This document shows, piece by piece, positions 57,560-61,949 of a DNA stretch of 64,000 nt. The notes under the pieces were generated by a model. That model was not told the origin of the DNA and did not search any database. It saw only the letters and a list, made by a program, of their open reading frames with translations. The translations under genes and the position numbers were made by a program. Within the stretch, counting starts at the first letter, position 1. Every line of letters begins with the position of its first letter. Source of the DNA: Rhodococcus globerulus NBRC 14531 (GTDB lineage Bacteria; Actinomycetota; Actinomycetes; Mycobacteriales; Mycobacteriaceae); the NCBI RefSeq assembly GCF_001894805.1, contig NZ_BCWX01000002.1:124001-188000 (forward strand). The letters are read 5' to 3'.

Positions 57560-57808
57560 ATGAGCGTGGAGCGAATTGCGGGTTGGTGGGACGGCGTGGA
57601 GCTGTGGATTGCCGGCCTTCCCTTCATCCCACAGGTCGTGTTGGTCCTTGCCGTTGTTGTTCCACTGTGTGCCGGCATCGCGATCGGTCTGGATCGTGGA
57701 TTGTCAGCAGTGTTGTCGTCGCCGGTCTTCGAGTGGCTACGACGCACCCCAGCGGCAATCTCCGAGAAAACCCCCGAGAAATCTTTCAGAGAAGTCGAGG
57801 AAAACTGA
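57560..57808 (+). CDS. Small single-pass membrane protein (Rv2401A-like)
   Basis: 82 aa from ATG 57560. One hydrophobic helix about 22-43 (IPQVVLVLAVVVPLCAGIAIG), then a charged tail (EKTPEKSFREVEEN). Position between the trehalase and sulfate-uptake genes matches Rv2401A; no known function. The stop overlaps the next tiny ORF as TGATG. Confidence 0.7.
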   Translation: MSVERIAGWWDGVELWIAGLPFIPQVVLVLAVVVPLCAGIAIGLDRGLSAVLSSPVFEWLRRTPAAISEKTPEKSFREVEEN

Positions 57809-57885
57809 TGCCCCGCTCACGGGTCACTCTTGCACTGATCGCCCTGATCCTTCTTTGTATCGTGGCGTGGCTTCTCACTCGTTAG
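57808..57885 (+). CDS. Putative 25-aa membrane peptide
   Basis: ATG 57808 overlaps the previous stop (TGATG). 25 aa, basic MPRSR start, a 16-residue hydrophobic stretch (VTLALIALILLCIVAWLL) and TR end. Coupled reinitiation is likely. It could be a real micropeptide or a chance ORF; conservation is needed to decide. Confidence 0.4.
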   Translation: MPRSRVTLALIALILLCIVAWLLTR

Positions 57886-57893
57886 AGATTCGA

Positions 57894-57923
57894 TTCGAGA
57901 CCGCCGGAATGCTCTGCTAGAGT
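57894..57923 (+). promoter_or_regulatory. Promoter of the cysteine leader and sulfate operon
   Basis: TTCGAG (57894-57899) and TAGAGT (57918-57923), spacer 18 bp. The leader GTG (57931) begins eight bases after the -10, where transcription would start, giving a leaderless mRNA. Confidence 0.5.
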
Positions 57924-57930
57924 CCTCGAC

Positions 57931-58020
57931 GTGTCCGAAGCAGCAGCTCCCCAGATCCGCCACCAGTTGGCGTTGATCGCTGTCGGCATGCTTGACGTCG
58001 CTGACGTCGCCTGTTGTTGA
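57931..58020 (+). CDS. Leader peptide ending Cys-Cys (cysteine-responsive attenuator candidate)
   Basis: 29 codons, GTG to TGA, beginning MSEAAAPQIRHQLALIA and ending DVADVACC. The last two sense codons are TGT TGT. It lies in the 339-bp gap before the sulfate-binding protein gene. Leaderless short ORFs with a run of Cys codons act as cysteine-responsive attenuators ahead of sulfur genes in mycobacteria; here slow translation at the Cys codons would expose or hide downstream structure. Too short to show by codon statistics alone. Confidence 0.7.
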   Translation: MSEAAAPQIRHQLALIAVGMLDVADVACC

Positions 58021-58224
58021 TTTCCCTGTAGTTCGAATTCCTCGGTGGCGCACGTGCGCCCCGCTCGAACTCTTCTGCGCGTAGTTCGCGCCCCCCGACC
58101 ATGGGCATCTTAAAGCCCCGTCGGCTCTTCATGTCCGAACATTCCGATGGATTCAGCCCCAGAGGTCTCGGACTTTCACGCTGTGTCAGCCCTTTTCTGT
58201 CAGCCCTCTCGGAAGGTATCTGCA
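58021..58224 (+). promoter_or_regulatory. Structured leader region after the Cys-Cys ORF
   Basis: A hairpin with outer arms AGTTCGA (58030-58036) and TCGAACT (58065-58071) and an inner GGCGCAC/GTGCGCC stem (58047-58060) begins ten bases past the leader stop. The word GTAGTTCG is repeated at 58081-58088, inside a small GCGCG/CGCGC hairpin, so TCGAACT could pair with either copy. The sulfate gene Shine-Dalgarno (GGAAGG) sits near 58211-58216. Confidence 0.45.
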
Positions 58225-59256
58225 ATGAAACGCCGTTCCCGCACACTCCTCACTGCTATCGCGACCATGGGGGCCGTGGTACTCACAGCGTGCAGCGGTG
58301 GCTCGAGCGATACCGTCGGCGCCGATACGGTTGCCAGCGACGGTAGCGCCGGCACGATCAACCTGTTTGCCTACGCGGTCCCGAAGCCCGGCTTCGACAA
58401 GCTGATTCCCGCATTCCAGGCGACGGAAGACGGCAAGAACGTTGCGTTCAACCCGTCGTACGGCGCCTCGGGCGACCAGTCGCGCAAGGTGAAGGACGGC
58501 GCGGAAGCCGACTTCGTCAACTTCTCCGTCGAGCCCGACATCACTCGCCTCGTCGACGCGGGCCTGGTGGACAAGAACTGGAATCAGGACGCCTACAACG
58601 GAATTCCGTTCGGATCGGTTGTCACCATCGTGACGCGTCCCGGAAACCCGAAGGGCATCAAGGACTGGGACGACCTGCTCCAGCCCGGCCTCGAGGTTGT
58701 CACCCCGAACCCGTTCAGTTCGGGCTCGGCCAAGTGGAACCTGTTGGCGCCGTACGCGGCAAAGAGTGACGGCGGCAAGAACCCGCAGGCCGGCCTCGAC
58801 TACATCACCGCGCTCGTCAACGATCACGTCAAGATCCAGCCGAAGTCGGGCCGCGAAGCATCGGAAGCCTTCTTGCAGGGCAGCGGCGACGTTCTGATCA
58901 GCTACGAGAACGAAGCACTGTTCATCGAGGGCAACGGAGATCCGGTCGAGCACGTCACCCCGCCGACGACGTTCAAGATCGAGAATCCGGTCGCTGTGCT
59001 GTCGAACAGCAAGGTTCTGGAGCAGGCAACGGCGTTCAAGGATTACCTCTACACCACCGAAGGCCAGAAGCTGTGGGCCGAAGCAGGATTCCGCCCGGTT
59101 GATCCCGCGGTTGCCGCCGAGTTCACCGACAAGTTCCCGGAGCCCACGAAGCTGTGGACCATCACGGATCTGGGTGGCTGGAAGACCGTCGACTCCACAC
59201 TGTTCACCAAGGATACCGGTTCCATCGCCGTAATCTACGACAACGCAACCAAGTAA
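58225..59256 (+). CDS. subI: Sulfate-binding lipoprotein of ABC importer
   Basis: 343 aa. Lipoprotein signal MKRRSRTLLTAIATMGAVVLTAC (lipobox LTAC), then the sulfate/thiosulfate-binding family body: INLFAYAVPKPGFDKLIPAF, FNPSYGASGDQSRKVKDGAEADFVNFSVEPDITRLVDAGLV, VVTPNPFSSGSAKWNLLAPYA. Captures sulfate or thiosulfate outside the membrane for CysTWA. ATG 58225 is chosen for the lipoprotein signal; the longer frame start at 58147 is not. First gene of the operon with permeases 8 bp downstream. Confidence 0.94.
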   Translation: MKRRSRTLLTAIATMGAVVLTACSGGSSDTVGADTVASDGSAGTINLFAYAVPKPGFDKLIPAFQATEDGKNVAFNPSYGASGDQSRKVKDGAEADFVNFSVEPDITRLVDAGLVDKNWNQDAYNGIPFGSVVTIVTRPGNPKGIKDWDDLLQPGLEVVTPNPFSSGSAKWNLLAPYAAKSDGGKNPQAGLDYITALVNDHVKIQPKSGREASEAFLQGSGDVLISYENEALFIEGNGDPVEHVTPPTTFKIENPVAVLSNSKVLEQATAFKDYLYTTEGQKLWAEAGFRPVDPAVAAEFTDKFPEPTKLWTITDLGGWKTVDSTLFTKDTGSIAVIYDNATK

Positions 59257-59263
59257 GACTGCC

Positions 59264-60109
59264 GTGACCGACACCATTGAACGCACACCCGTGACCCGCA
59301 AACCCAAACTCGCGCGGGTCACGGGAAGCGTCGGGCCACTCGGCATCGGCGTGGCCACACTCTGGCTTTCCATCATCGTCCTGCTGCCGCTCGCGGCGCT
59401 GACCGTCACCGCTTTCGACGACGGTATCGCCGGGTTCTGGGACGCCATCACCGCACCGGTCGCGCTGGCGTCGTTGCGGGTGACGCTGTTCGCCTCGATC
59501 GTCGTGGCGTTGATCAACGTCGTGATGGGCACGATCATCGCGTGGGTGCTTGTGCGAGACGAGTTCCCGGGCAAGCGAATTGTGAACGCGATGATCGACC
59601 TGCCGTTTGCGTTGCCGACCATCGTGGCGTCGATTGTTCTGCTGTCGCTGTACGGGCCGCAGTCACCGATCGACATTCACCTCAACGCAACCCAGCCCGG
59701 CCTGATCGTCGCGCTGGCATTCGTGACTCTGCCGTTTGTGGTGCGTTCGGTGCAGCCGGTTCTGATGGAGGTCGATCGTGAAGTCGAGGAAGCGGCAGCA
59801 TCTTTGGGTGCGTCCAACTGGACGATCTTCCGTTCCGTTGTGTTGCCGACGCTGGCTCCTGCCGTGATTTCAGGAGCCGGCCTGGCGTTTGCGCGAGCGA
59901 TCGGTGAGTACGGTTCGGTGGTTCTCATCGGCGGCAACATTCCGCGCGTGACGCAGGTGACGTCGCAGTACATTCAGCAGCAGATCGAAATCGATCGTCC
60001 GACCAATGCTGCTGCGGTGTCGGTGGCCTTGCTGCTCATCGCGTTCGTGACGCTGTTCGTGCTGCGTCTCTTCTCTTCTCGGGGTCAACGACGTGAGGAA
60101 CGCGGCTGA
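59264..60109 (+). CDS. cysT: Sulfate ABC transporter permease CysT
   Basis: 281 aa with six membrane segments. The EAA loop for ATPase contact is EVDREVEEAAASLGASNWTIFRSVVLPTLAPAVISGAGLAFARAIGEYGSVVLIGGN near residues 167-225, and the opening ALTVTAFDDGIAGFWDAITAPVALASLRVTL is CysT-like. Start GTG 59264 lies 7 bp after the binding-protein gene. The stop overlaps the cysW start by one base. Confidence 0.95.
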   Translation: MTDTIERTPVTRKPKLARVTGSVGPLGIGVATLWLSIIVLLPLAALTVTAFDDGIAGFWDAITAPVALASLRVTLFASIVVALINVVMGTIIAWVLVRDEFPGKRIVNAMIDLPFALPTIVASIVLLSLYGPQSPIDIHLNATQPGLIVALAFVTLPFVVRSVQPVLMEVDREVEEAAASLGASNWTIFRSVVLPTLAPAVISGAGLAFARAIGEYGSVVLIGGNIPRVTQVTSQYIQQQIEIDRPTNAAAVSVALLLIAFVTLFVLRLFSSRGQRREERG

Positions 60110-60915
60110 TGAACATTTCCACGAAATCGCGGATCGGACTGCGGTCCGTCGCGCTCCTGTACCTGTTCGTTCTTCTTGTGGTGCCGATCGGTGTGATCTT
60201 GACGCGTACGTTCGAGAACGGGATCGGCGCGTTCATCGACTCGATCACGACGCCTGCGGCGATTTCGGCACTGAATCTGTCGCTGCTCATCGTGGTGATC
60301 GTGGTACCGATCAACGTGATCTTCGGAATTGTCACCGCACTTGCCTTGGTGCGCGGGCGTTTTCCCGGTCGCGGTGTTTTGCAGTCCGTCGTCGACCTGC
60401 CGTTTGCGGTCTCGCCTGTTGTGGTCGGTGTGTCGCTGATCCTGCTGTGGGGCGCAAACGGATGGTTCGGCGGAATCGAGTCCTTGGGATTCAAGGTGAT
60501 CTTCGGATTGCCTGGCATGGTGCTCGCAACCATCTTCGTCACGTTGCCGTTTGTCGTCCGCGAGGTCGAACCCGTCCTGCACGAGATCGGTGACGAGCAG
60601 GAGCAGGCCGCGGCGACGCTGGGGGCTTCGGGGTGGCAGACGTTCTGGCGCATCACGTTGCCCGCGATTCGGTGGGGCTTGACCTATGGAATCGTGTTGA
60701 CCGTTGCCCGCTCTCTCGGTGAATTCGGGGCTGTCATCATGGTGTCGTCGGGCTTCCCAGGGGTATCCCAGACGTTGACCTTGCTCGTGCATTCGCGATA
60801 CATCGACGATCACAACACCTTTGGTGCGTATTCGGCAGCTACTCTGCTGATGGGCATCGCCATCATTGTCCTGTTGCTGATGACGCTGCTGGACCGCAAG
60901 AGGAGCAACACATGA
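60109..60915 (+). CDS. cysW: Sulfate ABC transporter permease CysW
   Basis: 268 aa with six membrane segments. EAA loop [58 protein letters not shown] is CysW-like. ATG 60109 overlaps the cysT stop (TGATG), and its own stop overlaps the cysA start (ATGA). Pairs with CysT to form the sulfate channel. Confidence 0.95.
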
Positions 60916-61949
60916 TCACTGTGACCGGGGCGCGTAAGAACTACGGTGACTTCGCGGCGCTCGACGACGTGTCCGTCAACATCCCGTCCGGTTCCCTGAC
61001 CGCACTGCTCGGGCCGAGTGGCTCCGGCAAGTCGACGCTATTGCGGTCGATCGCGGGTCTCGAGCAACTCGATTCCGGCACCATCACGATTGCGGGAAAG
61101 GACGTCACCGGCGTCTCCCCGCAGAAGCGTGACATCGGGTTCGTGTTCCAGCATTACGCCGCGTTCAAGCACATGACGGTTCGCGACAACGTCGCGTTCG
61201 GTCTCAAGATCCGTAAGCGTCCGAAGCCGGAGATCGAGAAGAAAGTCAACGAACTTCTGGAGATCGTCGGCCTCGACGGCTTCCAGCATCGTTATCCGGC
61301 ACAGCTGTCCGGTGGTCAGCGTCAGCGGATGGCATTGGCGCGTGCCCTTGCCGTCGATCCGCAGGTGCTGCTGCTCGACGAGCCTTTTGGCGCGCTGGAC
61401 GCGAAAGTTCGCGCAGACCTGCGCACCTGGCTCCGCCGGTTGCACGACGAAGTGCATGTCACGACGGTTCTGGTCACCCACGACCAGGAGGAAGCCCTCG
61501 ATGTCGCGGATCGTATCGCTGTGCTGAACAAGGGACGGATCGAGCAGATCGGTGAACCTGCCGACCTCTACGACCGCCCGGCCAACGATTTTGTGATGTC
61601 CTTCCTCGGATCTGTCGCCAAGCTCAACGGCCAGTTGGTGCGCCCGCACGACATCCGGCTCGGCCGCGACCCCAGCATGGCTCTCGCTCAGGAAGCCGGA
61701 ACCGCAGAATCGCTCGGCGTCACCCGGGCGACGGTCGAACGTGTGGTGTACCTGGGCTTCGAGGTTCGTGTGGACCTGCGCAACGAAGCGACGGGGGAGC
61801 TGTTCTCAGCTCAGGTCACGCGCGGAGACAGTGCTGCTCTGCATTTGGAAGCCGGCGAGACGGTGTACGCCCGTGCGACTCGGGTTCCGGACCTTCCGGA
61901 AGAGCCGGTGGACTCTCCGACGGTTGTGAGCCTCGTAGGCCAGGTGTGA
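60912..61949 (+). CDS. cysA: Sulfate ABC transporter ATPase CysA
   Basis: 345 aa. Walker [21 protein letters not shown] near residue 34, Q-loop [14 protein letters not shown], signature [19 protein letters not shown] near 129, Walker [18 protein letters not shown]-loop [15 protein letters not shown]. The C-terminal TOBE region runs about 240-345. Drives sulfate/thiosulfate import, feeding the assimilatory pathway that shares siroheme chemistry with nitrate/nitrite reduction. Nine bp separate its stop from the convergent stress-protein gene. Confidence 0.96.

Follow-up and report, generated by a model that had tools for sequence, protein, structure and literature searches.

We found that a 29-codon open reading frame at 57931-58020, on the forward strand of the analysed 64,000-nucleotide stretch of Rhodococcus globerulus DNA (hereafter, the window), most likely places the sulfate importer operon subI-cysTWA under cysteine-responsive control, as a leader of the Ms4533A family in which a paused ribosome would relieve attenuation. 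Judged by its sequence, the ORF belongs, as a representative from Rhodococcus, to a family of cysteine attenuators known from mycobacteria, for which an annotation model already exists.

The ORF runs from GTG to TGA, is translated as VSEAAAPQIRHQLALIAVGMLDVADVACC and ends in GCC TGT TGT TGA, just as the initial annotation had read it. Seven bases separate its GTG from a -10-like TAGAGT (57918-57923), which places the start on the eighth base past the hexamer, again as first described; TGC stands directly 5' of TAGAGT, and together they form an extended -10 element, TGCTAGAGT, at 57915-57923. A scan of 57850-58260 for two-hexamer sigma-70-type promoters gave none, the -10 being the only recognisable part. 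When both strands of the 64 kb were scanned for TANNNT followed at 6-8 nt by an ATG or GTG ORF of 8-50 codons, four ORFs were obtained, and only the one at 57931-58020 has CC within its last four residues. Relatives keep this arrangement: of 154 distinct leaders, 153 have TANNNT and then an in-frame start, at a distance of 7 nt in 136 leaders, of 6 nt in 16 and of 9 nt in one. The geometry agrees with a leaderless message, short of proof. Farther upstream, a 25-residue ORF (MPRSRVTLALIALILLCIVAWLLTR, 57808-57885, forward strand) with the look of a single membrane helix stops 45 nt short of the leader start. A Pfam search of it gave no family, and a crude pattern finds a counterpart upstream of 65 of the 105 leaders with enough flanking DNA, mycobacterial-type leaders included.

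The NCBIfam model NF042937 ("Ms4533A family Cys-rich leader peptide") matches the ORF over residues 1-29 with 53.3 bits (E 2.3e-14), against a curated cut-off of 31 bits. With this match the ORF falls into a named family and cannot be called unannotatable. It supports the earlier suggestion of a polycysteine, leaderless-type class as in mycobacteria and corrects the statement that the ORF is too short for standard annotation, NF042937 being a standard annotation model for it. The model also matches in all 18 aligned relatives, and within the genus 27 of 28 genomes carry the family, the one miss being a 74% complete genome. At wider range, 208 of 401 genomes of the taxonomic family, in 20 of 31 genera, have a match at E ≤ 0.001 (194 over the cut-off), as do 33 of 298 sampled genomes of the order (29 over the cut-off) and none of 14 control genomes; because the number of first-look candidates scored in each genome was limited, these absences are not firm. 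An Rfam search of the whole window at the gathering threshold gave no match. NF042935, considered as a possible Cys-leader family, was rejected as an unrelated model of 477 positions.

The relatives compared below come from 177 fetched loci, which yielded 154 distinct leaders and 128 distinct cores; five loci with a family match (L049, L050, L065, L188 and L190) gave no hit to the regular expression that defined the core. Leaders are called mycobacterial or non-mycobacterial by the Val/Ile two residues after the R/G position, and not by taxonomy records. Seven Prescottella-type loci (L015, L016, L018, L019, L023, L025 and L029) carry two leaders that differ in sequence, and in the two that we opened, L015 and L016, the unit of leader and subI is duplicated in tandem.

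Downstream of the leader, on the same strand, lie subI (58225-59256), encoding the substrate-binding protein of a sulfate ABC transporter, the permease genes cysT (59264-60109) and cysW (60109-60915), and cysA (60912-61949), encoding the sulfate ATPase; they match TIGR00971, TIGR02139, TIGR02140 and TIGR00968, respectively, all over the cut-off. The gap of 204 nt between the leader ORF and subI includes the Shine-Dalgarno sequence of subI, GGAAGG, at 58211-58216. In 151 of the 154 distinct leaders subI follows at a distance of 71-265 nt, and the other three run off the fetched DNA; the position ahead of the importer, pointed out at the start, is thus kept across the relatives.

The leader peptide is conserved as RHxLALIAVGxxxVADxxC, and the codons beneath it vary. 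Between the 23 mycobacterial-type and the 105 other cores, pS was 0.816 and pN 0.063 over nine core codons (LALIAV plus VAD), with pN somewhat flattered towards conservation by a regular expression that demanded AV and VAD; L057 and the window encode the identical LALIAVG without sharing a single one of its seven codons. Since codons change and residues are kept, selection acts on the peptide beyond its cysteines. It also acts on codons: the conserved Cys codon after VADxx, which aligns with the first of the tandem TGT TGT codons of the window leader (58012-58017), is TGT in 128 of 128 distinct cores, against 46 of 175 Cys codons (26%) in the genes of the window. Conserved Cys codons with silent changes elsewhere were the pattern that the initial annotation had proposed to look for, and this is what the comparison gave. 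The next codon is Cys in 85 of the 128 cores (TGT in 75 of them) and Arg in the other 43. After VAD, non-mycobacterial cores (n = 105) have one Cys in 42 cases, two in 59 and three in 4, and mycobacterial-type cores (n = 23) have two in 12, three in 6 and four in 5. Immediately 5' of the Cys codons of the window leader we also noted a perfect tandem repeat, two copies of TGACGTCGC at 57993-58010, in which a GACGTC hairpin is possible.

Short ORFs are common, and this one could have arisen by chance and have no function. Such an origin is hardly credible here, because it is contradicted by conservation throughout the family: the profile match, the presence in 27 of 28 genus genomes, the TGT found in 128 of 128 cores, the pS and pN values and the linkage to subI. 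The conserved peptide raises another question, namely whether the nascent RHxLALIAVGxxxVADxxC prolongs, from within the exit tunnel, the pause at a single required Cys codon, in the manner of an arrest peptide and in combination with either of the output steps considered below. We regard this as possible, if on the doubtful side. The seven synonymous changes in LALIAVG and the low pN argue for it, as does the sufficiency of one Cys codon in 42 of the 105 non-mycobacterial cores. However, part of the core (H, L, A) overlaps the hairpin H1, described next, so that RNA pairing could explain some of the conservation, and Pfam holds no family for the leader peptide.

RNAalifold on 102 nonredundant leaders gave two candidate hairpins within the reading frame, and their pairs were counted in 64 leaders. 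H1 (57958-57972) has the form CGCCA-N5-TGGCG; H2 (58000-58017) has the form GCNGAYR...UGUYGN and pairs 58000-58006 with 58012-58017, its 3' arm being the Cys codons. Pairing is kept in 97.5% of cells for H1, 99.2% for H2 and 98.4% for the two jointly, the last value being reached by none of 500 shuffles, and it drops to 20-65% when the partners are slid by 1-3 columns. In H1, both sides change at the closing pair only. Its first residue is R, G, S or C, yet of the 128 cores all but one, with GGT, use an NGC codon there, and the Leu/Val codon opposite it ends in G in 127 of 128. The closing pair is C-G, G-C, A-U, U-A or U-G in 121 of the 128 cores and broken in seven. A lengthening of H1 through GATC...GATC (57954-57957 and 57975-57978), which may occur, was set aside as weak, the observed pairing of the outer extension being close to expectation.

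All variation in H2 is one-sided, with no compensatory change among the 64 leaders, and support for H2 therefore comes from the invariant TGT and from a switch between Cys and Arg that keeps YG. That the third base of TGT never varies would follow from H2; a codon-level reason is possible too. Controls for covariation in the joint structure were mixed. Eight cells changed on both sides, against 1.3 in the shuffles (0 of 500 reached this number), and only one pair showed such a change, against 0.8 in the shuffles, 377 of 500 of which were at least as high; the control slid by +3 had 16 doubly changed cells, against the 8 of the structure itself. Given these controls, H1 and H2 are good candidates for RNA hairpins, which fit the constraints on the codons, short of proof. 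Alternatively, the dyad GCCA-N5-TGGC could be a DNA operator for a sulfur regulator, the ORF being secondary. In favour of an operator, changes in its four inner pairs are very rare and the closing pair tends to stay symmetric. Against it, the dyad sits in a reading frame under strong conservation, the genome contains a single exact match to the extended motif, and a C-to-T change is tolerated as a G-U pair, once (L056). We consider an operator quite improbable.

In the mechanism that we favour, a cysteine-responsive leader, the transcript would start at the GTG and be translated by a 70S ribosome in the leaderless manner. With Cys-tRNA in short supply, the ribosome would pause on the terminal TGT codon or codons and would keep the downstream leader RNA from blocking subI, raising sulfate import; with ample cysteine, it would finish the leader and the operon would be attenuated. 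The sign of this regulation follows work on M. smegmatis, as conveyed by citing papers. The many relatives with a single Cys codon count against this mechanism, since one codon would be weak for a pure starvation sensor. As to the output step in Rhodococcus, the least certain part, we lean slightly to premature transcription termination in the C-rich spacer, either Rho-dependent or at the hairpin that follows the stop codon, over masking of the ribosome site, which is a close rival. If masking operates, as in the translational attenuation of M. smegmatis, the leader RNA would cover the ribosome-binding site of subI and a ribosome stalled on the Cys codons would open it. This is the published model for leaders of the family (PMC9031893, PMC13236596), and for Rhodococcus we hold it to be tenable, though tentative.

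We folded 142 nonredundant leaders, 23 mycobacterial and 119 of Rhodococcus/Nocardia type, both freely and with the conserved Cys codon occupied by a stalled ribosome. In the mycobacterial leaders, the free fraction of the Shine-Dalgarno sequence was 0.159 (shuffles 0.440, p = 5e-7) and grew by 0.195 on stalling (shuffles 0.028, p = 0.006), with a rise of more than 0.1 in 14 leaders and a fall in none; these P values, like all those from folding, treat related sequences as independent. In the 119 Rhodococcus/Nocardia-type leaders there was no signal of masking as a group, the Shine-Dalgarno sequence being 0.340 free against 0.335 in shuffles (p = 0.3), and the mean effect of stalling was -0.012 (12 up, 17 down). 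The Shine-Dalgarno result differs between the two groups (p = 5e-6, relatedness ignored). The wider region from Shine-Dalgarno to start codon behaved similarly but more weakly, being 0.307 free against 0.418 in shuffles for the mycobacterial leaders and 0.446 against 0.413 for the others; the mean stalling gain there was not above shuffles in either group (p = 0.21 and 0.22, respectively) and did not differ between them (p = 0.12).

Ten clusters of at least four members with similar spacers covered 71 of the 142 leaders. In the two mycobacterial clusters, comprising 11 of the 23 leaders, the Cys/stop segment is predicted to lie on one side of a helix of 14-16 bp, and a CUUUUCC/CUUUCC segment to pair with the Shine-Dalgarno sequence, an arrangement in keeping with translational attenuation as published. 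As a feature of the whole family, a sequence complementary to the subI ribosome site beside the stop codon was rejected: of 119 non-mycobacterial leaders, 16 have the best such site at no more than 20 nt from the stop, and of the 23 mycobacterial ones none does.

The six leaders of the window clade have the Shine-Dalgarno sequence mostly paired (0.07-0.30 free), and in their consensus UGUUGUUGAUUUCC can pair with GGAAGGUAUCUGCAAU, at the Shine-Dalgarno and start (duplexes of -9.0 to -13.2 kcal/mol in five leaders). These observations argue for masking; the pairing shows no compensatory change and no covariation, which argues against it. In L004 and L005, the Shine-Dalgarno sequence pairs with the Cys/stop segment at 0.58-0.59 and stalling frees it modestly (from 0.10 to 0.20 and from 0.12 to 0.31, respectively), favouring masking in those leaders. 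The window leader (L043 in the folded set) speaks for the other side: its Shine-Dalgarno sequence pairs mainly with the subI coding sequence (0.74, against 0.03 with the Cys/stop segment), and folding does not show that stalling on the Cys codons frees it (0.07 to 0.11 free). The subI coding sequence is the main partner in L008 and L009 as well (0.71-0.80 over the three leaders), and the earlier ORF is mostly the partner in L090 (0.52), with little or no stalling gain in any of these. Taken together, the window clade does not decide between masking and termination.

Termination, to which we lean, is suggested by the missing masking signal in the 119 Rhodococcus/Nocardia-type leaders and by the spacer between the leader and the ribosome-binding site of subI (58021-58210), which is C-rich and G-poor (C 0.36, G 0.23), as leader RNAs of the Rho type are. 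C exceeds G in 118 of 120 non-mycobacterial and in 22 of 23 mycobacterial spacers, so that the bias is without clade specificity, and this counts against termination via the spacer. Among 34 control stretches upstream of genes in the window (mean C-G 0.000, sd 0.07), three were as C-biased as the spacer, one of the 34 being the stretch before subI itself. A trp-type terminator hairpin with a U-tract was not found between leader and subI. The scan for intrinsic terminators gave only one terminator-like site, inside the ORF and at chance level, and in 33 leaders the best spacer hairpin was not in excess of shuffles (mean -16.7 against -16.1 kcal/mol).

A hairpin directly after the ORF, claimed in the initial annotation, is present at 58030-58071 (AGTTCGA...TCGAACT, then CTTCTG). 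It is kept in nine distinct clade sequences, with pairing-preserving changes and a U-rich tail, one pair being broken in one of them, but the tail is weak and the element is specific to the clade, not general across the leader family. With the usual ribosome footprint, a ribosome with either Cys codon in its A site would end just short of this hairpin, a point against the favoured mechanism. The repeated word reported after the ORF, GTAGTTCG, does occur twice, at 58028-58035 and 58081-58088. We rejected it as an alternative-structure element: it is found twice in the window genome only, once in L090 and not at all in the other seven of the nine clade sequences, and alternative structures built on a word that is not conserved in the clade are unlikely to matter.

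Compared with the Ms4533A family and the polycysteine leaderless sORFs of M. smegmatis, the window leader shares the full 29-residue profile match, the leaderless-type promoter spacing and the C-terminal Cys codons, and the mycobacterial relatives that we fetched have the same downstream gene, subI. It differs in having two Cys codons, against up to four there, and a GTG start, where most mycobacterial-type leaders have ATG; its spacer of 204 nt compares with medians of 188 nt in non-mycobacterial and 119 nt in mycobacterial leaders. Unlike mycobacterial leaders, those of Rhodococcus/Nocardia type give no group-level folding sign of a masked subI ribosome site. The sensor is conserved, and the output step may differ between the mycobacterial and the Rhodococcus/Nocardia types. 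A bolder form of this idea would be one cysteine sensor with interchangeable outputs. The ORF, nascent peptide, in-frame hairpin and invariant UGU would make up a sensing module across Mycobacteriaceae, in which a single UGU plus the peptide is enough to sense cysteine, coupled in mycobacteria to unmasking of the ribosome site and in Rhodococcus/Nocardia to a different step, probably Rho-dependent premature termination. In its entirety this proposal is speculative and rather unlikely.

In the classical transcription attenuators of trp, his and leu, too, genes that supply an amino acid are preceded by a leader peptide with codons for that amino acid, which regulates them. The leader studied here differs in that its peptide is largely conserved, that we found no clear U-tract terminator and that it looks leaderless. 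In Rho-dependent attenuation of the tnaC type, a stall near the stop beside C-rich RNA could shield Rho loading, and the nascent peptide is conserved, as it is here. The sign expected here is the opposite, scarcity and not abundance turning the operon on, and the role of Rho is putative. Polycysteine leaderless sORFs of M. smegmatis are reportedly the subject of Canestrari et al. (2020), and a set of operons in that species is said to be under independent Cys leaders. A literature search that covered few subscription papers found nothing on Cys leaders of Rhodococcus. For riboswitches of Mtb, termination by Rho within leaders has been reported (PMC12810186). Conserved mycobacterial Cys-rich uORFs are described upstream of cysA2, Rv0485 and nirA (PMC4633059), and six predicted regulatory Cys-rich uORFs are treated (PMC9094748).

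The same genome contains other Cys leaders, of which two precede sulfur genes, a point in favour of the proposed regulation. The Ms4527A leader (NF042936) and cis_reg_atten (NF042934) families also consist of short Cys-containing leaders, and both have examples here, the NF042936 match being below the cut-off; their core is different (RRHxDxxR...) and they precede other operons. The Ms4527A-like leader, which ends in RRHVDFKRVCSSTCLHCCCC and lies about 5.4 kb beyond the right end of the window (L100, C2:193391-193450, reverse strand), scores 41.4 bits for NF042936 against a cut-off of 45. Its next gene has nitrite/sulphite reductase domains, and the operon behind it may read back towards the right end of the window. 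Two further leaders are at C3:353396-353452 on the reverse strand (L093) and C1:628791-628847 on the forward strand (L092). One of these two ends in CRLGGCCCSCC and precedes a DUF4395 protein and a rhodanese, and one ends in RRHVDLCRTAGSFCTH and precedes a family 5 solute-binding protein. A possible leader below the family cut-off (L094, C1:623983-624030, forward strand) ends in RRTASCHCR, with the codons TGT CAC TGT CGC TGA. Given these other leaders, several operons are likely to be under independent Cys leaders in this Rhodococcus genome, by analogy with M. smegmatis.

Our results extend the range of the sulfate importer leader, a cysteine-responsive element that has been tested in mycobacteria, to Rhodococcus, Prescottella and Nocardia. 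They also go beyond the polycysteine picture: the peptide is conserved outside its Cys codons, the UGU is invariant, some leaders have a single Cys, and the output may have changed. A known kind of leader is found in a host group for which we found no published test, and there is good reason to ask about a changed output. Control by the sulfur source in Rhodococcus is of practical use in desulfurisation. Through this tiny leader gene, the cell can very probably turn sulfate import on once cysteine becomes scarce.
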